A DNA stretch of 26,785 bases from a virus: the IMG/VR virus record IMGVR_UViG_3300017746_000118, positions 1-26,785 of that record; one strand, given 5' to 3'. This document shows positions 6,633-15,201 of the stretch, in pieces. The stretch's first letter is position 1, and the number at the start of each line of letters is the position of its first letter. A program made the position numbers and the translations under genes. The notes under the pieces were generated by a model. The model had not been told where the DNA came from and searched no databases. It worked only from the letters and a program-made list of their open reading frames with translations.

Positions 6633-8696
6633 ATGATTCATACCAACAAAGACGTTATGATTAAAGGGCATATACCCACGGAGGCGTGGAAGCCATCACA
6701 CGAAGAATTTCAGTATCCAAAATCATTTGTAGACTGGATAGATAGTATTAACTCTGGGTGGCAGAATAAAAAAGAATTTAAGCCCTTTAGTCTTTACTGC
6801 GACCAAGCCGAAGATTGGCTAAAAGACAAATCTAGCATCATGGATTTTGACAACGAAGAAGATCAGTATGATTGGCTCGTTGAGGAGATTCAGAGATGTA
6901 AAGACAACACCCTATACTTTTGTAACAAGTATGGATTTATAAAAGAAGACAAGTCTCAAGGAGGTATGTTAAAATACTCAGCTTGGGAAGCTCAGAAGGT
7001 TTTATTATTTCTATTTGATTGTGGGTATTCTTTTATGATAGGCAAAGCTCGTCAGATTGGTTTTACAACGACTATGTGCCTTGCAGGAATGAAGCGAGTA
7101 AACCTAAACAAATCATACTTTATAAAATTTGTTACGCACTCAGAGTCAAAAGGTATAGAGATATTTCGGGATAAAGTTAAATGGACATATACAAAGATTC
7201 CAGAACATATAGCTCAGGAGGTAAAGAACTGGACAGACAAGGTTATGTCATTTGACAAAAAAGGTCAAAAGAAGGGTCGTGACGAAGGGGGAGCATCAAG
7301 ATTCCAGGTAGATAGCCCACAGGTAGACGCAATAAATGGTGGTTCTCCATCTGCAGTATTTGTAGATGAGATAGGTCTGTTTGATATATTCGGTGAGATG
7401 ATGCGTGAGGGTAGACCTGCATTATTTAAGTACAATCCAGATACAGGAAAGATGACCATGCAGCAGCAGTTTATGGCCTGGGGAACTGGAGGTGAGATGG
7501 ATAAAGGTGGGTCTGTATTTGAATCTGAGTTTAAAATGTGCCTAAAACAATGGAAAGAAGGTAATTATGAGTACGGGATTATACCATTATTTTTTAACGC
7601 TTATGCTAGGAGAGGAGTAACAGACGCACATATAAACAACGAAAGAAAAGCATACCTGGCTTTAGAGGGGACAAAAAAAGGAGAAATAGCAAAGGTTCAG
7701 TTTCATCAACACTATCCAATAACAGTAGATGATATGTTCTTGCGTAAATCAAGAACTTTAGTTCCTATAAGTCTATGCAATCAAAGACTAAACGATATAT
7801 ACGGTAAAGACGTTCCAATTGAGTATGGATATTTTGAACCCATACTAGATCAATCTCAACCAACTCCAGACCTTATAACTACTCATAGAATAGTTGGTGC
7901 AGAATGGATACCTACAAAAGGTAGAGAGGATATAAGTACGTCAGCTGTAATTATTCATCACCCTCCAAATGGAGAAGTGTGGAAGAATAGATGGTATCAA
8001 GGGACTGACCCGATTAACTCAGAAACAGGACATTCTAAAATGTGTAGTGCTATATGGGATTCATATACGAACTCTGTATCTTCTGTTGTTTTTCATAGGG
8101 ACAGAAAGTTTAAACAAACATATCTACAAGTGTTACTTCAAAGTCTTTATTACGACCAACAAAAAAGAGGTGGTGTTAAAGAGCTTATAGAGAATAATAT
8201 TGGAGACATGCATCTTGACTTTCAAGAAATACATGGTTTTAGAAATAAATTTACCGCTATGGCTCAGTTGCCAGAGTATTTGCAAATAAGGTCTGGAAAA
8301 TGGTTTGGTATATCTAATAAAGCCAATACAGGCCCAAGAATAATAGCAAAGACAGAAGAGATGCTAGAGACATACGCTGAAAGCATAGATATTCCTTGGA
8401 TATGGGAGCAATTAAAGACTTTTGTTGAAAAAGATTTAAAAAGCTCTACAAGTCACAGGCAAACTAGATATCAAGCGGCAGACACCAGATATGACTATGA
8501 TGATGCTATATTTGCAGTAACATTTGCATATATAAATGCACAAGCACACGCTAGATACGAACCTGAAAACGTTAAAACAACAAAGGGAAGTAATAAGGTA
8601 ACAACTAGATATATACAATCTAAAGAGACTAATTACAGAATGAAACTTGCAAGGGTTGATGCGGAGACAGGAAAAGTTCTAAAAATTATCAATTAG
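6633..8696 (+). CDS. terL: Terminase large subunit (ATPase and nuclease)
   Basis: This is the packaging motor: it pumps DNA into the prohead through the portal using ATP and cuts the concatemer. The 687-aa length fits a full TerL. The Walker A region is the variant KARQIGFTT (residues 138-146), common in this family in place of GKT. Walker B is AVFVDE (241-246), with the catalytic Glu at 246. The C-terminal RNase-H-like nuclease shows YQGTDP with its first acidic residue and, near the end, YDYDDAIFA carrying later acidic residues. No intein or frameshift is visible. The portal lies about 8 kb downstream, beyond the fibre genes, which is unusual because the two are often adjacent. No small terminase is recognised. 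Confidence 0.93.
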   Translation: MIHTNKDVMIKGHIPTEAWKPSHEEFQYPKSFVDWIDSINSGWQNKKEFKPFSLYCDQAEDWLKDKSSIMDFDNEEDQYDWLVEEIQRCKDNTLYFCNKYGFIKEDKSQGGMLKYSAWEAQKVLLFLFDCGYSFMIGKARQIGFTTTMCLAGMKRVNLNKSYFIKFVTHSESKGIEIFRDKVKWTYTKIPEHIAQEVKNWTDKVMSFDKKGQKKGRDEGGASRFQVDSPQVDAINGGSPSAVFVDEIGLFDIFGEMMREGRPALFKYNPDTGKMTMQQQFMAWGTGGEMDKGGSVFESEFKMCLKQWKEGNYEYGIIPLFFNAYARRGVTDAHINNERKAYLALEGTKKGEIAKVQFHQHYPITVDDMFLRKSRTLVPISLCNQRLNDIYGKDVPIEYGYFEPILDQSQPTPDLITTHRIVGAEWIPTKGREDISTSAVIIHHPPNGEVWKNRWYQGTDPINSETGHSKMCSAIWDSYTNSVSSVVFHRDRKFKQTYLQVLLQSLYYDQQKRGGVKELIENNIGDMHLDFQEIHGFRNKFTAMAQLPEYLQIRSGKWFGISNKANTGPRIIAKTEEMLETYAESIDIPWIWEQLKTFVEKDLKSSTSHRQTRYQAADTRYDYDDAIFAVTFAYINAQAHARYEPENVKTTKGSNKVTTRYIQSKETNYRMKLARVDAETGKVLKIIN

Positions 8697-8705
8697 AATA
8701 TTGTA

Positions 8706-8713
8706 TATATTTG
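8706..8713 (+). promoter_or_regulatory. -7 box TATATTTG before the fibre genes
   Basis: An exact TATATTTG in the gap after terL, 26 bases before the first fibre ATG at 8740, leaving a short leader of about 20 bases. No clear -33 element is present. It probably drives the whole fibre cassette. Confidence 0.5.
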
Positions 8714-8739
8714 TAATGTAAAATTTTTAAAAAAAAGAC

Positions 8740-9687
8740 ATGCCTTTATACGTAGGAGATAACGAAATATTTGGTGGAGACGTATCAAATCCACAAGACA
8801 CTAAAGTAAACGATTTAGATTTAAAATTTAAAACCAATGGATTTAGTGGATCAAATTCAGTTGGAGTTGGTAAGGGCCAATTAATTGAGGCAACCAAAGC
8901 AACCACTGCTGTAGGTGATTTAGCTCACGGAGGAAACCAAGGAACTGGAAATACAGTTGTTGGAGCAAGAGCTCTTCAGGGAGATGATACTCCTGGCGCT
9001 GGAGTTGGAAGTTGGAACACAGCTGTGGGGCTTCAAGCTGGATCTGGAATAGGTGGTAGTGAGAACACTATTGTAGGAGCAGAAGCTATGGCAGCAGGTT
9101 CTTTTGGTGCAGCTTTAGCACCAGGGCCAAAAAATACAATCATAGGAAGAAAAGCTGGATATTTACTAACCAGTGGTCAAAAAAATGTCTTTGTTGGATG
9201 GTTGGCAGGAACTGGTGGTAACACTGTCACTGGAAGCATGAAAACAGGAAGCAATAATATTTTTATTGGTACAAACGGACTAGATGTTACTGACCCTATA
9301 GACAATCACATTCTTCTTGGTGATGGAAATACTACAGATTTATTCTGTTCTGCTACAACAATTCAATTTTTGTCTGACGAGAGAGATAAAAAAGAAATAA
9401 GAGGGGTAACGGCAGGACTAGATTTAGTTAATGACCTAAGACCCGTTGAGTTTATTTGGGACGCTAGAGACAAGGATCTTGAAAGAAATGGATCAAAAGA
9501 CTGCGGCTTTATAGCTCAAGAGCTAAAGGCTGTTCAAGAAAAATATGGACTATCTGAAGAGTTAAAACTTGTAAACGAAACTGCATTTGAAGATAAGATA
9601 ACAGCAGCTCCAGGAAGACTTCTTCCAATCTTAGTCAAAGCAATTCAAGAACTATCTGCAGAAATAGCAGAGCTTAAATCTAAATAA
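8740..9687 (+). CDS. Fibre protein 1 with Peptidase_S74 chaperone domain
   Basis: A 315-aa trimeric fibre-type protein. Residues 1-50 differ from the paralogs and may anchor it to the virion. Residues about 60-200 are YadA-head-like repeats (NTVVGARAL, NTAVGLQAG, NTIIGRKAG, NNIFIG), which build a trimeric beta-roll. At residue 211 the Peptidase_S74 intramolecular chaperone begins (FLSDERDKKEI). Ser212 and Lys217 match the known Ser-Lys dyad that releases the chaperone by self-cleavage before the Ser. VEFIWDARD, DCGFIAQEL and GRLLPILVKAIQEL are typical of the domain. It ends in a short coiled coil. It is the first of four tandem copies and probably binds the host surface. Confidence 0.85.
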   Translation: MPLYVGDNEIFGGDVSNPQDTKVNDLDLKFKTNGFSGSNSVGVGKGQLIEATKATTAVGDLAHGGNQGTGNTVVGARALQGDDTPGAGVGSWNTAVGLQAGSGIGGSENTIVGAEAMAAGSFGAALAPGPKNTIIGRKAGYLLTSGQKNVFVGWLAGTGGNTVTGSMKTGSNNIFIGTNGLDVTDPIDNHILLGDGNTTDLFCSATTIQFLSDERDKKEIRGVTAGLDLVNDLRPVEFIWDARDKDLERNGSKDCGFIAQELKAVQEKYGLSEELKLVNETAFEDKITAAPGRLLPILVKAIQELSAEIAELKSK

Positions 9688-9688
9688 A

Positions 9689-11194
9689 ATGAGTACAATA
9701 AATGTAAACAATTTAAACCCTAACGGAGACCCAGTAATAACAGTAGGCTCTGAAGCAGATGCAACTGAAGGTGCAAGATTTGGAATAATTCCTGCTCCTA
9801 GTGGAGCTGCTTTAGACGATTCAAGTTTGGTCTTTGGACATGATGCGTTAACATCTGCTGGCACTGGAAAGGGGAATGTAGCTATTGGTAGTGAATCTCA
9901 AAAAAACACTACAGATGGTAGATACAATATATCTGTCGGTAATAGTGCTTTGGAAAATTGCAACAGCGGAGAAGGAAATATTGCAATAGGAGATGGAGCG
10001 ATGAAGGGGGCGGTAAGTCCTTTAGAGGGAAATGATCAAAATGTTGCTATAGGTTCTAATTCATTAAAAAGCATTGATGCTTATGGAGCATTAAACGTGG
10101 CAATAGGTAGCGAATCAGGAGGTTCAATTACTGCTGGAACAACTAATGTTTGTATAGGTGCAAAATCAGGAAGACAGCTAACAACTGGAGACAGAAACAT
10201 ACTTATAGGCAACTACGCAGGTTCAAACGGAGACACTCCTGTAAATGGAATACAAACGGGTAGTGATAATATTGTTTTGCAAACAGGGTCTGGAACTGAT
10301 GCATCTGCTATAGATAGTAGCAAGAATGTAATTATAGGATCATCCGTATCTGGACTAAATTCAACTGGCAATGTTTCTTTAGGTTCAAACGTTGTAATAG
10401 GTCACGATGCAGGTTCTGAAGCGTCTGGTGTTGGAAGAGTTGTGATGATTGGAGCAGATGCTGGGAAAAATGCTGTTCAAGCCGTAGATGGTGTATGTAT
10501 TGGACCGCTTGCTGGTAAGGATGCTACATTTCTTGGTAGCTCTATTGCTATAGGTACTAATGCGGGTCTAGTAATAGACAGCCCTGACATGGTAGGTATT
10601 GGAGATAGATCATTGCAAGCTGCGACAGGAAGTAAGGTTACAGCTTTAGGCTCTAAGGCTGGATCAAGGCTTACAACAGGTAGTTTTAACCTTTTACTTG
10701 GAAATTACGCTGGCTCAGCTGGAGACAGTGATGCAGGAGCTCTATTGACAGGAAGCAATAATATTGTTTTAGCGGCTGGAGATTTAGATTGGCAAGATAT
10801 AATGTCAGATGTAAGCAACACCGTAGTTATAGGTAGCTCAACTCAAACTCAAATATATGCAGGTGTAAATACTATTACTGCTTTATCTGACAAGAGAGAC
10901 AAGAAAGATGTTAAAGAAATATCTGCAGGTTTAGACTTTATTAAGGACTTAAAGCCTGTTGATTTTATCTGGGATGAAAGAAAAGAAAGCGGCAAGAAAG
11001 ATATAAAGGACTGTGGATTCTTAGCCCAGGACTTAAAAGAAGCTGAAGACAAGCATGGTGTTGCCGATCACTTAAGATTAGTTGACGACAAGAACCCAGA
11101 AAAACTTTTAGCTACATACGGAAGACTTCTTCCTGTTATGGTTAAAGCCATGCAAGAAATGAGTGAAAAAATTGAATTATTAGAAAAAAAATAA
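9689..11194 (+). CDS. Fibre protein 2 with Peptidase_S74 domain and internal duplication
   Basis: The longest of the four paralogs (501 aa). A short N-terminal segment (MSTINVNNLNPNG) resembles that of copy 4. A long run of YadA-head-like units (NVAIGSES, NISVGNSAL, NIAIGDGAM and so on) follows. Two blocks, residues about 160-218 (GRQLTTGDRNILIGNYAGSN onward) and 324-383 (AGSRLTTGSFNLLLGNYAGS onward), are clearly duplicates, which explains the extra length. The S74 chaperone starts at LSDKRDKKDV with the dyad Ser400 and Lys405 intact, followed by FIWDERKES, DCGFLAQDL and GRLLPVMVKAMQEM. The C-terminus SEKIELLEKK is a short coiled coil like that of copy 4. It starts one base after the stop of copy 1. 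Confidence 0.85.
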   Translation: MSTINVNNLNPNGDPVITVGSEADATEGARFGIIPAPSGAALDDSSLVFGHDALTSAGTGKGNVAIGSESQKNTTDGRYNISVGNSALENCNSGEGNIAIGDGAMKGAVSPLEGNDQNVAIGSNSLKSIDAYGALNVAIGSESGGSITAGTTNVCIGAKSGRQLTTGDRNILIGNYAGSNGDTPVNGIQTGSDNIVLQTGSGTDASAIDSSKNVIIGSSVSGLNSTGNVSLGSNVVIGHDAGSEASGVGRVVMIGADAGKNAVQAVDGVCIGPLAGKDATFLGSSIAIGTNAGLVIDSPDMVGIGDRSLQAATGSKVTALGSKAGSRLTTGSFNLLLGNYAGSAGDSDAGALLTGSNNIVLAAGDLDWQDIMSDVSNTVVIGSSTQTQIYAGVNTITALSDKRDKKDVKEISAGLDFIKDLKPVDFIWDERKESGKKDIKDCGFLAQDLKEAEDKHGVADHLRLVDDKNPEKLLATYGRLLPVMVKAMQEMSEKIELLEKK

Positions 11195-11197
11195 ATT

Positions 11198-12130
11198 ATG
11201 CCTTTAGAAGTAAATGAAATAAGTAGTGAATCATCAGGAGACGTTTCGATAACAGATCCATTAAAAGTTGACCAAATATTCCCAAGAACTGTAGATAAGG
11301 TTCTTGTTGGAGGAGTAGGAATCAAAGGGGATGAAGCTACTAGGTTTGTTAATATTGGCGCAAATGATAACGGTGCAAACATAGTTGGTGCTGTTATAAT
11401 TGGAGCTAATGCTGGAAGCGCAACTATAGAAAACTCAGGGTCAGGTATAGCTATTGGAGATAACAACCTTCCAAACGCAGATAACCTTGCTAGCAACATT
11501 ACTATAGGTTTTAACTGCATGACTTCAGCAGCAAACACATCTACTAATGGAGGAGCAAGAAACAATGTTTGTATAGGGGTTGGAGTTGGAGCAAATTTAG
11601 GAGACCCTGTTATACCAGGTGGAGGCTCAAACAATACATTAATAGGAAGGTTTGCTGGAACAACATTAACCACTGGATACAATAATATATGTATAGGTAA
11701 TCAGGCAGAGCCAGCTAACGCATTTGACATAAACACCATAACTCTAGGTAATAGTTCAATATTCAGCCTAAGATGCGCTGTTCAAACAATTACATCTTTA
11801 TCTGATGAAAGAGATAAAAAGGATATTAAAGAGTTACCTGTTGGTCTTGATTTTGTAAACGGACTAAAGCCAGTAACTTTTGAATGGGATGAAAGAGCAG
11901 AGGGCGGTAAGAAAGGTATCACAGATATTGGATTTACAGCTCAAGATTTAAAGAAGTCTCAAGAAGAAACAGATATTGCTGAAACTTTAGGATTAGTTTC
12001 AGAATCAAACCCCGATAGACTAGAAGCTTCTTATGGTAGACTCTTGCCAATCATGGTTAAGGCAATGCAAGAACTATCTGCAGAAATAGCAGAGCTAAAA
12101 ACAGAGATAGAACAATTAAAAAAAAAATAA
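11198..12130 (+). CDS. Fibre protein 3 with Peptidase_S74 chaperone domain
   Basis: A 310-aa paralog with the same plan: a variable N-terminus (MPLEVNEISSESSGDVSITD), YadA-head-like repeats (VIIGANAGS, GIAIGDNN, NITIGFN, NVCIGVG, NTLIGRFAG) and the S74 domain from about residue 200. The dyad is Ser202 and Lys207 in LSDERDKKDI. The chaperone carries FEWDERAEG, DIGFTAQDL and GRLLPIMVKAMQEL and ends in a coiled coil (AEIAELKTEIEQLKKK). DNA at 11390-11418 is identical to copy 4, and DNA at 12068-12096 is identical to copy 1, so it is a mosaic. Cleavage would free a mature trimeric fibre and discard about 110 residues. Confidence 0.85.
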   Translation: MPLEVNEISSESSGDVSITDPLKVDQIFPRTVDKVLVGGVGIKGDEATRFVNIGANDNGANIVGAVIIGANAGSATIENSGSGIAIGDNNLPNADNLASNITIGFNCMTSAANTSTNGGARNNVCIGVGVGANLGDPVIPGGGSNNTLIGRFAGTTLTTGYNNICIGNQAEPANAFDINTITLGNSSIFSLRCAVQTITSLSDERDKKDIKELPVGLDFVNGLKPVTFEWDERAEGGKKGITDIGFTAQDLKKSQEETDIAETLGLVSESNPDRLEASYGRLLPIMVKAMQELSAEIAELKTEIEQLKKK

Positions 12131-12136
12131 AATAAG

Positions 12137-13006
12137 ATGAGCGAAATTAATGTAGATATTGTAAATCCACAGGCCGCAGAAAAAGTAAACGTCAATGGTC
12201 TAAAAATAAAAGGATCAACAGAGGCAAGCTCATTTGGTTCCGTAAATATTGGACCTTATGACTCTGGAGTTGATATTTTTGGCGCTGTTATAATTGGAGC
12301 TAATGCTGGAAGTGTAACTCAAACGGTTAATGCTTCTGGTATGGCTATTGGTTCAGAATGTCTAAGCAACGCTCTTGATTTAGCAAGCAATATTGCAATT
12401 GGAACGGGGTGTATGAAGTTCACAACAAATAGCACTCCCATTACAAAGGCAAGCAACAACATTGCAATAGGTATTTCTGCGGGAAGGAACCTAGAGTCAG
12501 CAGGAGCTCCAACAGCGTCAAACAACACAATAATAGGAAGATTTGCTGGTACAGAAATGACAACAGGATTTAATAATATTGTAATAGGAAATGAAGCTGA
12601 AGCAAATACTCCAACATCTGCAAACTCAATAACATTAGGTGACAATCAAATATCTTCACTTAGATGTAATGTAAATACAATCACATCTCTATCAGACGCT
12701 AGAGATAAAAAAGGAGTTAAAACATTAGGTGTTGGTATTGATTTTATTAAAGGATTAAAACCTGTAGAGTTTATTTGGGATGAAAGAGGTGAAAAAGGTA
12801 AAAAAGACATTAAAGATTTTGGCTTTATAGCTCAAGACTTAAAAAAATCTCAAGAAGAAACTGATATCGCTGACACTTTAAATTTGGTTTCAGAATCAAA
12901 CCCTGACAAGTTAGAGGCTTCTTATGGTAGGCTTTTACCAATTATAGTTAAAGCAATGCAGGAAATAAGTGAAAAAATTGAATTAATAGAATCTAAACTA
13001 AAATAA
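12137..13006 (+). CDS. Fibre protein 4 with Peptidase_S74 chaperone domain
   Basis: The shortest paralog, 289 aa. The N-terminus MSEINVDIVNPQ parallels that of copy 2. The middle (FGAVIIGANAGS, GMAIGSEC, NIAIGTG, NNIAIGISAG, NTIIGRFAG) is closest to copy 3. The S74 domain begins LSDARDKKGV with Ser186 and Lys191 of the dyad present, then FIWDERGEK, DFGFIAQDL and GRLLPIIVKAMQEI. It ends SEKIELIESKLK, like copy 2. In copies 2-4 the chaperone contains a shared motif, LVxxxNPxxLxAxYGRLLP, that holds the domain's core. It is the last of the cassette and is followed two bases later by a small beta-rich protein. Confidence 0.85.
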   Translation: MSEINVDIVNPQAAEKVNVNGLKIKGSTEASSFGSVNIGPYDSGVDIFGAVIIGANAGSVTQTVNASGMAIGSECLSNALDLASNIAIGTGCMKFTTNSTPITKASNNIAIGISAGRNLESAGAPTASNNTIIGRFAGTEMTTGFNNIVIGNEAEANTPTSANSITLGDNQISSLRCNVNTITSLSDARDKKGVKTLGVGIDFIKGLKPVEFIWDERGEKGKKDIKDFGFIAQDLKKSQEETDIADTLNLVSESNPDKLEASYGRLLPIIVKAMQEISEKIELIESKLK

Positions 13007-13007
13007 A

Positions 13008-13268
13008 ATGTCGTATATACAGAAATCATTTTTTAAACCTCAAGTAAACTCAAACAGCAATGAGAATAATATGTTCTTTGACATTAGATATCTCCTTCAA
13101 GCAATTGAGGGTGCATCAATGTATGTAAATGGGTTTAGAATAACTAGCTGTCTAGAGGGTAATATACTTTTACCTGAAAACTCAACTGTAGAATATACTG
13201 GGCCGTTAACTCTATGCTCTGGAGCTACACTAACAATTCCAAGCGGAACAACTTTAACAATAATATAA
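13008..13268 (+). CDS. Small beta-rich structural protein (probable), 86 aa
   Basis: The N-terminal half is polar (SFFKPQVNSNSNENNMFF) with one helix (DIRYLLQAIEGASMYVNG). The C-terminal half is a ladder of short strands, GNILLPENSTVEYTGPLTLC then SGATLTIPSGTTLTII, of the type seen in beta-helix or triple-stranded spike tips. Two cysteines are present. It directly follows the four fibres, so it may be a small spike, a fibre cap or a fibre-attachment protein. No family is recognised, and the role rests on context and on the strand pattern. Confidence 0.6.
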   Translation: MSYIQKSFFKPQVNSNSNENNMFFDIRYLLQAIEGASMYVNGFRITSCLEGNILLPENSTVEYTGPLTLCSGATLTIPSGTTLTII

Positions 13269-13275
13269 ATAAAAA

Positions 13276-13518
13276 ATGGCAGAAAAAGAAAAAGAGTCGG
13301 TAGACTTTAAAAAACATACTGAAATTAAAGAATACGAAAAGAAAGCAAAAGCAAGGGTTAGAGGGTCTGCTAAACATGAAAATAGATTTTCATTAAACAG
13401 TAAGTTTATAGAAGATAACGATAAAATTTTTGATGTTTTGTCTAAACTTTCAGATCATGTTTCTAACTTAGAAGAAAGAGTTGCTACTTTAGAGTTGGCG
13501 CCTCCAAAAGAAAAGTAG
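13276..13518 (+). CDS. Small charged coiled-coil protein, 80 aa
   Basis: A highly charged N-terminal part (MAEKEKESVDFKKHTEIKEY, then KKAKARVRGSAKHENRFSL) is followed by a C-terminal heptad region (KIFDVLSKLSDHVSNLEERV, then ATLELAPPKEK) that should form a coiled coil. It follows the beta-rich protein by seven bases and closes the rightward fibre unit. Its last 35 bases overlap the end of the convergent minus-strand gene, so the two units run tail to tail with no room for a terminator. It may be a linker or a small structural component. No family is recognised. Confidence 0.6.
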   Translation: MAEKEKESVDFKKHTEIKEYEKKAKARVRGSAKHENRFSLNSKFIEDNDKIFDVLSKLSDHVSNLEERVATLELAPPKEK

Positions 13519-13867
13519 ACCATTCTATTTGAAATTGAGATAGTATAACTTTTGATTTATCAAATCTTAGTTTTTTATTCTCCCAAACACAACCGTGTTG
13601 GTTTTCTTTAACTAACTCGTACTGTTCTTCTATAGAATAGAAATGCTTCATTTCTTTTTTATTCATTTTTTTGTACGACATTCTGGTATATCCATGTCCA
13701 TCTTCAAATGAATTTTTATTAGAATTATACCAATAAAGATGATACTCTGTAATGTATCTAGTGGATTCAAATATTGGAGTTATATAAGACTTAGCAATAA
13801 AATGTTGAGTTTCGTCTCCTATTACTTGTGAAAGTTTATTACTAGAGTATGACGAAGATGTACTCAA
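13484..13867 (-). CDS. Hypothetical protein of the minus-strand island, 127 aa
   Basis: The frame starts at a TTG (13867), since the only nearby ATG is followed at once by a stop. The first internal Met is at residue 62. The N-terminal third is Ser-rich (MSTSSSYSSNKLSQVIGDET). The rest is rich in aromatic and charged residues (EYHLYWYNSNKNSFEDGHGY, MNKKEMKHFYSIEEQYEL, CVWENKKLRFDKSKV). It looks like a small soluble mixed alpha/beta domain of unknown function. It lies two bases after the nuclease gene stop, so it is probably co-transcribed with it. Its end overlaps a plus-strand gene. Confidence 0.55.
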   Translation of the reverse strand: MSTSSSYSSNKLSQVIGDETQHFIAKSYITPIFESTRYITEYHLYWYNSNKNSFEDGHGYTRMSYKKMNKKEMKHFYSIEEQYELVKENQHGCVWENKKLRFDKSKVILSQFQIEWSTFLLEAPTLK

Positions 13868-13868
13868 T

Positions 13869-14624
13869 TTACATTATTGTATTTTCCAATTCTTTCATAA
13901 TAAAATCTACTTCTGTTCCTAAATCCCAAACAGGGATGGTAACATAATTTTCGTTCTTATCATTGTTTAACCAACAAATATAACAATTTCCTACGTTTAT
14001 TTTGGTGTTTCTTTCTATTATGTGTTTGTATATACCTAGCTGAAGGCTAAATTTTGTCATTTCACAGTCATCTAAATGATCTAATCCATTTATTAGCTTA
14101 TTGCCATAAGGATTATGGTCTTTTATTTCTTTATTAGTCTTATAGTCCCATATTTGATATTCATTGGCAGTTTCATTGTAGAAAAGTTTATCTACCATGC
14201 CACATATACCTAAGATATAATCCCCAACAACGAGTTCTGCTTTAGCAAGTATTAATTTTCCTTTAGTGTCGTTAAAAAAATTATCTACAAAGCTTAAAAG
14301 ATTAGGATCTACCTCAGACAACTGAGGGTCTTCGTATAGTTTGCTTTGAAATATATATTCAGCGTAAGCATGTACGTGTGTTCCTTTAAATGCAGCGGAA
14401 TCCCTTTTATCTTCCCAGTCTTTTAACACTTGAATTACGGGTATGTTATGTTTTTTAGCATACCTAGTTGCTATGAGTTCTGACTCAAATGGTTTTTGAT
14501 ACTGTCCAACAATAGAAGTAACCGAAGTACACTCTTTCTCTCTGTAAAAATAAGTGTGAGAGCGTTCTCTAAATATTATATCTCTAAACTTGTCTAGTTC
14601 TTTTAATATAGATGAATCAATCAT
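13869..14624 (-). CDS. PD-(D/E)XK nuclease (Cas4/RecB-like)
   Basis: A 251-aa nuclease of the restriction-endonuclease-like fold. The motifs run in order: a helix with GTHVHAYAEYIF (His of the RecB/Cas4 type, residue about 82), AELVVGDYILGICGMVDKLF (Glu and the metal-binding Asp), YQIWDYKTNKE (the Asp-x-Lys core) and LQLGIYKHIIE (the trailing Gln-x-x-x-Tyr motif). All catalytic residues are present. I see no cysteine cluster, so it is probably not an iron-sulfur Cas4. Such enzymes act as 5'-3' exonucleases in phage recombination or replication. It sits on the opposite strand inside the structural region, overlapping the upstream gene by four bases. Confidence 0.85.
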   Translation of the reverse strand: MIDSSILKELDKFRDIIFRERSHTYFYREKECTSVTSIVGQYQKPFESELIATRYAKKHNIPVIQVLKDWEDKRDSAAFKGTHVHAYAEYIFQSKLYEDPQLSEVDPNLLSFVDNFFNDTKGKLILAKAELVVGDYILGICGMVDKLFYNETANEYQIWDYKTNKEIKDHNPYGNKLINGLDHLDDCEMTKFSLQLGIYKHIIERNTKINVGNCYICWLNNDKNENYVTIPVWDLGTEVDFIMKELENTIM

Positions 14625-14917
14625 ATTAAATCAACCTCCTCTACCTCTTTCATTAAATCTTCTAATGCTTTTTCCATCATTTCATCCTCATCGGATAAAG
14701 GTCTAAATCTATTAGAAAGAAAATATTGAAACTTAGATCCTTCAGATATATTTACCTCGGCAAGCTTATACCCAAGCGTCATTCTTTGTCTTGCTAGGTT
14801 CTTTGCGTCAACAACTGTGTAGATTTCATTTTTCTTAATCCACTCTCCAATAAAACCATTTGGTTTAGCATTATCATTAACACACACAACTCTAAAACTG
14901 TCCATAATTCCATACAT
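14621..14917 (-). CDS. Hypothetical protein, 98 aa, first gene of the minus-strand island
   Basis: I place the start at ATG 14917 (MYGIMDSFRVVCVNDNAKPN), with 14905 as an alternative. The open frame continues upstream to 15163 but reads a Phe-rich translation of a poly-purine tract, which is non-coding. The protein has a beta-rich first half (FRVVCVNDNAKPNGFIGEWI then KKNEIYTVVDAKNLARQRMT) that looks like a small barrel domain, then SKFQYFLSNRFRPLSDED and an acidic C-terminal helix (EKALEDLMKEVEEVDLI). No family is certain. It precedes the PD-(D/E)XK nuclease with a four-base overlap, so it may be its partner. Confidence 0.6.
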   Translation of the reverse strand: MYGIMDSFRVVCVNDNAKPNGFIGEWIKKNEIYTVVDAKNLARQRMTLGYKLAEVNISEGSKFQYFLSNRFRPLSDEDEMMEKALEDLMKEVEEVDLI

Positions 14918-14924
14918 AAATTTT

Positions 14925-14978
14925 AAAAAACCCCCAAGTATAATTGTATGGTTGGACTGGATAGAGAATACAAGGGGG
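14925..14978 (-). terminator. Terminator-like hairpin in the leader of the minus-strand island
   Basis: Read on the minus strand, CCCCC-TT-GTAT (14978-14968) pairs with ATAC-TT-GGGGG (14941-14931), with an unpaired TT/TT step and a 26-base loop. Six T residues (14930-14925) follow immediately. It lies between the predicted promoter (15028-15035) and the start codon at 14917, so it could act as an attenuator or translation-control hairpin and not as an end-of-gene terminator. Confidence 0.55.
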
Positions 14979-15027
14979 TTTAAAGTAAAATAAAAAAGCC
15001 AACGACCAACCAACTCTAATGTTGAAA

Positions 15028-15035
15028 CAAATATA
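15028..15035 (-). promoter_or_regulatory. Minus-strand -7 box TATATTTG
   Basis: The plus strand reads CAAATATA, the exact complement of TATATTTG. It would start a leftward message near 15022, giving a leader of about 100 bases that contains the G/C hairpin and T tract, then the three-gene island. No clear -33 element is visible because the upstream DNA is the purine tract. Confidence 0.5.
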
Positions 15036-15046
15036 GTACATTTTTT

Positions 15047-15138
15047 AAAAAAAACAAAAGAAAAGAAGAAAAAAGAAAAAGAAAGAAAAGAACCAAAAGA
15101 AAGAAAAAGAAAAAAGAAGAAAAGAAAAGAAAAAAAAG
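15047..15138 (+). repeat. Long poly-purine tract
   Basis: About 92 bases are almost purely A and G on the plus strand, broken only by one C (15055) and a CC (15093-15094). It lies between the divergent promoters of the minus-strand island and the 15283 gene. It could exclude nucleoid proteins, bend or open the DNA, or form a triplex. The Phe-rich minus-strand frame through it is not a gene. Confidence 0.8.
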
Positions 15139-15201
15139 TTTTCTCTAAAAAAGTTATTAACAAAGTGTATTTTCCTTAAAATTTTGCATTTAAAAAACAT
15201 C

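Follow-up and report, generated by a model that had tools for sequence, protein, structure and literature searches.

Peptidase_S74 fibre genes and a putative adapter gene in a variable slot downstream of the terminase gene of uncultured phages

The window, that is, the whole stretch of DNA analysed here, is a piece of 26785 bases from the genome of an uncultured phage (IMG/VR record IMGVR_UViG_3300017746_000118). Directly after the TerL gene (6633-8696, plus strand; phrog_5989 terminase large subunit, E 2.6e-6), four genes with a Peptidase_S74 (S74) domain follow each other head to tail on the plus strand, all with an ATG start and with a spacing of 0-6 nt. These are S74 fibre a (8740-9687; 315 aa), fibre b (9689-11194; 501 aa), fibre c (11198-12130; 310 aa) and fibre d (12137-13006; 289 aa). 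Each product matched Pfam Peptidase_S74 at E 5e-10 to 2e-12, with 40-48 bits against the curated cut-off of 22. The residues of the catalytic dyad were checked, and both Ser and Lys were found in every copy (Ser212/Lys217 in a, Ser400/Lys405 in b, Ser202/Lys207 in c and Ser186/Lys191 in d). The original prediction of four adjacent S74 genes at 8740-13006, each with its dyad, was thus borne out by the open reading frames and by Pfam matches above cut-off. Among 33 aligned relatives, the S74 match was detected in all 33 with the domain at the C-terminus, and the Ser/Lys dyad, spaced by 5, was invariant; the motif S[DE].RDK was present in all 66 distinct complete homologues. No S74 domain besides these four was found elsewhere in the window record. 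The neighbourhood had been described as lying between terL and portal. The cassette does follow TerL directly, but the portal gene, which is P22-like (Pfam E 3e-26), starts 3.7 kb beyond it, and between fibre d and portal lie a gene for a protein of 86 residues (g86), an 80-aa gene, a minus-strand block and two further genes.

The fold was predicted for copy d, modelled from an alignment with moderate confidence (pLDDT 71). The model consists of a YadA-like body and an S74-like C-terminal domain. It resembled YadA (1p9h; Z 11.5, 3.7 A, 152 aligned residues) and BoaA (3s6l; Z 10.6), and its residues 185-289 resembled the endosialidase chaperone 3gw6 (Z 8.2, 3.2 A, 104 aligned residues) as well as the S74 chaperones 7dc3 (Z 7.7), 4uw8 (Z 7.3) and 3gud (Z 7.1). 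The YadA-head-like repeats proposed for these genes are therefore supported by the fold of the copy d model and not by a Pfam YadA match, as the Pfam YadA models gave no match at E <= 0.5 among 33 members. Hydrophobic-glycine sites recur at 17-residue spacing in the YadA-like part. As for the full chaperone claimed for every copy, the copy d model has the S74 fold, and copies a, b and c are judged by homology. Sequence searches of the PDB with single fibres or with g86 gave nothing useful. By analogy with 3gw6-type proteins, the product of each S74 gene is most likely a short homotrimeric fibre. The chain would begin with a joint of about 30-40 residues, continue as a YadA-head-like beta-roll and end in the S74 chaperone, which would trimerise the chain and then most likely cut itself off before the dyad serine. 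The predicted mature parts are residues 1-211 of a, 1-399 of b, 1-201 of c and 1-185 of d, giving putative mature fibres of 185-399 residues.

Relatives were collected by searching viral contigs with portal and TerL, which yielded 59 and 80 loci, partly overlapping (given below as L numbers). In nearly all loci the region from the TerL stop codon to a convergent minus-strand gene is variable, and we refer to this region as the slot. TerL, its left border, is 54-99% identical in the relatives; the convergent gene (13484-13867, minus strand) forms the right border and abuts TerL (gap -17 to +6 nt) in most relatives with an empty slot. The whole cassette (8699-13511, plus strand; 4813 nt) is absent as a unit from L004 and L064: their alignment with the window ends at 8698 (97%) and resumes at 13512 (84% and 95%, respectively), about 7 nt separating the two parts. 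The TerL of these two phages is 98-99% identical to that of the window in protein and 97% in DNA, yet the cassette is missing. These two against the window, and likewise L098 against L104, differ in slot state at 94-100% identity of the TerL 3' ends, and the same holds for many other pairs whose TerL ends are 93-100% identical. The 80-aa gene (13276-13518, plus strand) lies at the right slot edge, and stands alone in L001, L002, L050 and L069, which have no S74 genes. No inverted repeats able to flip the cassette were found. An assembly artefact was ruled out, because independent contigs carry the same gene order (a-b-c in L065, b-c-g86 in L003). As the cassette is optional, its fibres are accessory, and the locus is probably an exchangeable accessory fibre cassette in a hypervariable slot, whose genes are acquired or lost together. 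The minus-strand block (13484-15163, minus strand) consists of three genes, one of them exonuclease-like (phrog_298), and is kept between the fibre slot and portal in most relatives, opposing the direction of the virion genes.

The number of S74 genes per closed slot was 0 in 69, 1 in 19, 2 in 12, 3 in 11 and 4 in 4 of 115 distinct contigs, a set that includes some contigs found via the adapter search. The expectation that phages usually have one such gene fails in this group, in which relatives carry anything from none to four, and tandem arrays of 2-4 S74 genes are present in other phage backgrounds too. In near-full-length records (up to 68 kb), no S74 domain was detected outside the slot except for one weak one in two records. 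This weak domain (28 bits) is located at the C-terminus of a small protein in the record of L017 (L144:13395-14270, minus strand), and a similar match was found in the record of L016. Relatives of this protein are encoded about 12 kb downstream of portal (cf. L142:15930-16592 and L143:16199-16861); the gene looks like that of a tail or internal virion protein, an odd site for S74.

Comparison with orthologues indicated a modular pattern of conservation. For the N-terminal 40 residues, the middle and the S74 part, identity was 98, 78 and 97% between fibre a and its orthologue in L065 (others in L068 and L005), 95, 54 and 93% between b and L003, and 95, 68 and 100% between c and L003. The middle of b is mosaic: in the b orthologue of L065, the 5' third is 97-100% identical to L003 and the 3' part 88-99% identical to the window. 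The reverse swap was also observed, L020/L021 and L086/L089 being identical within each pair in the N-terminal part and the middle but not in the S74 part. Pairwise dN/dS was 0.38-0.50 for the middles and 0-0.11 for the S74 part; no claim of positive selection on the middles is made, since these values are below 1 and recombination confounds them. The beta-roll would be the variable part of the fibre and is probably surface- or receptor-binding. Two readings of the cassette had been offered at the outset, a set of fibres of differing specificity or several appendages on the capsid. The former fits best with the conserved ends, the diverged mosaic middles and the gain and loss of the whole set; capsid appendages have no support from gene position alone, and none of the features found discriminates between capsid and tail.

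The four copies might also be redundant products of a recent tandem amplification of one fibre gene, as they are adjacent, on the same strand and 0-6 nt apart, and the S74 parts of c and d share 72% identity, with 74% DNA identity over 300 nt. This origin is highly improbable. Among themselves the window copies are 46-72% identical in the S74 parts, 32-53% in the middles and 28-42% in the N-termini, and all pairs other than c-d fall at 46-65% in the S74 part. In the tree, b, c and d share a clade (97/94 support) and a lies in a different one; b and c have orthologues of their own, as does a, and all four copies are intact. The expansion at this site that had been envisaged is thus not a recent event, the copies belonging to different, partly older clades, and b, c and d may have arisen by an earlier duplication in this lineage.

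Absent from the original description of the cassette was g86 (13008-13268, plus strand; 86 aa), which follows fibre d and gave no match in Pfam or PHROG. Among the 98 closed slots found through TerL or portal, g86 homologues of 86-104 aa were present in all 29 with S74 and in none of the 69 without S74 (Fisher p 1.6e-25, and 1.6e-17 when reduced to 65 clusters). The S74 genes are placed before, after or on both sides of the adapter gene. These observations indicate that g86 and the S74 genes form an obligate partnership. A model of g86 was of middling quality (pLDDT 76, pTM 0.40), and Foldseek matched it to no known fold.

Two parts can be recognized in g86, a candidate docking peptide at residues 1 to about 35, with the consensus M..xQ(K/R)S...NE..IVEDI..L, and a C-terminal connector at about 37-86. 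The docking peptide also starts 13 distinct longer slot proteins (147-504 aa), which make up almost all other kinds of fibre that occupy the slot. An HMM built from the N-termini of the short adapters only detected these 13 proteins at E <= 2.3e-8; among about 4000 ORFs, the next match was no better than E 1.8. They include a protein with a TNF/BclA-like domain (L108) and YadA-like proteins lacking S74 (L078, L111). The short adapter is missing from the S74-less slots with such a docking-peptide fusion (10 contigs). Neither docking peptide nor connector was found elsewhere in whole-record searches of empty-slot genomes up to 66 kb. The slot of L014 holds two long genes, neither with a docking peptide. 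Beside a 504-aa docking-peptide fibre, the slot of L088 contains a 221-aa ORF (L088:8709-9374) that is glycosyltransferase-like (YCINLDRRPDRW motif).

From this arrangement, the following model is suggested. The N-terminal peptide of g86 would dock in a site on the virion, and the C-terminal connector of a g86 trimer would form the socket into which the S74 fibres fit with their N-terminal joints; other fibre types would reach the same virion site by carrying the docking peptide directly. That g86 docks on the virion and that self-cleaving S74 fibres of several kinds plug into a socket at its C-terminal end is, in our judgement from the sequences, the probable arrangement. With a single adapter gene for four kinds of fibre, mixed virions are probable, or the fibres may compete for sites. 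Since the N-termini of a-d differ (28-42% identity), they need not all use the same socket.

The connector was also detected in other phages. Its consensus over the last ~50 residues is xIxANGFxIVGxIxEDITLPxxxxxxYTGPLxMxxGxTLTIPxGTTLTIV, and it occurs on at least five unrelated N-terminal anchors (MDILNFISWIK..., MLNNLSNF..., MARTPQLNFE..., MATLVPSGTQF... and MNVEKKY...). An S74 gene lies within 57 nt of the connector gene in 35 of 39 pieces, and two of the four exceptions are cut at the contig end. In the cassette of L181, no docking peptide could be recognised along with the connector, and the connector of L209 stands with no S74 gene in the 8 kb of sequence covered. In all 11 cyanomyoviruses examined (L221-L230 and L217 among them), a giant fibre of about 2900-3800 aa, annotated as tail fibre and encoded near the neck genes gp13/gp14, ends exactly with a diverged connector. 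The next gene (in one or two cases the second next) starts with MSxL/I-x-V, like the S74 fibres, and its body is not S74. The profile of the N-terminal joint gave a best E of 0.0016 and mostly E > 0.1 against these cyanophage genes, this likeness being judged by eye. The small genes after the giant fibres combine a similar N-terminal start with many kinds of body (glycine-rich, LamG-like). The connector at the end of the giant fibre and the MSxL/I-x-V start next door indicate that unrelated phages encode the terminus of a proximal fibre or adapter right beside the beginning of distal fibres. With close to an even chance, the connector and the 'MSxINVDxIxPxxG' fibre start may constitute a general plug-and-socket joint for exchanging receptor-binding fibres between the virion anchors of unrelated phages. 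Its users might include, equally tentatively, the uncultured P22-portal group, larger-genome groups with MDILNF- or MLNNL-type anchors, and T4-like cyanophages. In the open-access papers searched, the connector was not found described.

The S74 proteins could instead attach to the virion by themselves, g86 being an unrelated small fibre that is co-inherited. The N-terminus of each S74 protein, conserved at 95-98% in close orthologues, is a possible direct anchor, and g86 is comparable in size to a small head fibre, for instance crAss001 gp21 (97 aa; PMC10172136). We regard self-attachment as unlikely, because the co-occurrence of g86 and S74 is perfect in 98 slots, the connector half accompanies S74 genes even where the anchor half is unrelated, and slot fibres without an adapter bear the docking peptide themselves. 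A second question is where on the virion such fibres would stand. They may be head fibres that decorate the capsid for loose adhesion to cells or particles, rather than serving receptor choice at the tail. The crAss001 head fibre gp21 is trimeric, of a size similar to g86, and encoded beside the portal gene, and its N-terminal residues 1-38 bind a hexon pocket (PMC10172136); in addition, the cassette is dispensable, 59 of the 98 slots found through TerL or portal having no docking-peptide or S74 gene. Against this stand three points: the crAss001 tail fibre gp22 docks likewise, through residues 1-26 (PMC10172136), no sequence match of g86 to gp21 or gp22 was noted, and the connector of cyanophages ends giant fibres annotated as tail fibre near gp13/gp14. 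A location on the head is accordingly a possibility of some substance, short of being the probable one.

The gp21/gp22 system of PhiCrAss001, a phage with a P22-like portal, resembles that of g86 in that short docking N-termini carry trimeric fibres; it differs in that no S74 partners or S74 connector are described (PMC10172136). When crAss001 gp21 was translated and read beside g86 by eye, no obvious similarity was seen. Fibres a-d share the dyad, the C-terminal place and the predicted fold with Peptidase_S74/endosialidase-type proteins (PF13884; 3gw6, 3gud; the T5 L-shaped fibre 4uw8; MyRF ICA 7dc3), and are unlike these in being very short, four in tandem per genome, and without a virion anchor of known type of their own. 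Sets of co-encoded receptor-binding proteins, joined through N-terminal parts as the cassette fibres would be and likewise swapped or lost by recombination, are found in the branched spikes of Ackermannviridae (CBA120 TSP1-4; PMC11414711) and in Alcyoneusvirus RaK2 (PMC10253068). Those spikes join through their own N-terminal domains, whereas in the cassette, as read from the genes, the N-terminal parts of the fibres are only 30-40 residues, a separate small adapter appears to supply the anchor, and the set is optional. As in the slot, S74/YadA and C1q-like fibre genes vary between near-identical phages in marine phage metaviromic islands (PMC3909814); for the slot, the present analysis defines both borders, the shared docking peptide and the partner gene. 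No account of a separately encoded adapter whose anchor can be swapped and whose connector is specific to S74 was found in the open-access literature; otherwise the system is akin to known modular receptor-binding systems.

No cultured relatives of the portal or of the candidate major capsid protein were found in the collection examined, nor did a portal profile scan of bacterial genomes give a relative. The leaders of the S74 genes (window 8719-8739, 9668-9688, 11177-11197 and 12116-12136) are A-rich and have no Shine-Dalgarno sequence. Such leaders are common in Bacteroidota and their phages, and the leader type hints at a Bacteroidota host.

Known S74 fibres form part of single fibres or spikes. 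Those of the slot appear to be exchangeable tips relying on a tiny adapter gene, unnamed in the family libraries searched, and the slot appears to be a host-recognition site in an abundant uncultured group of freshwater and marine phages. If the joint is real, the adapter pair would mark which fibre fits which phage, the swapping of fibres between unrelated phages would become traceable in metagenomes, and a defined protein pair would be at hand for laboratory testing.
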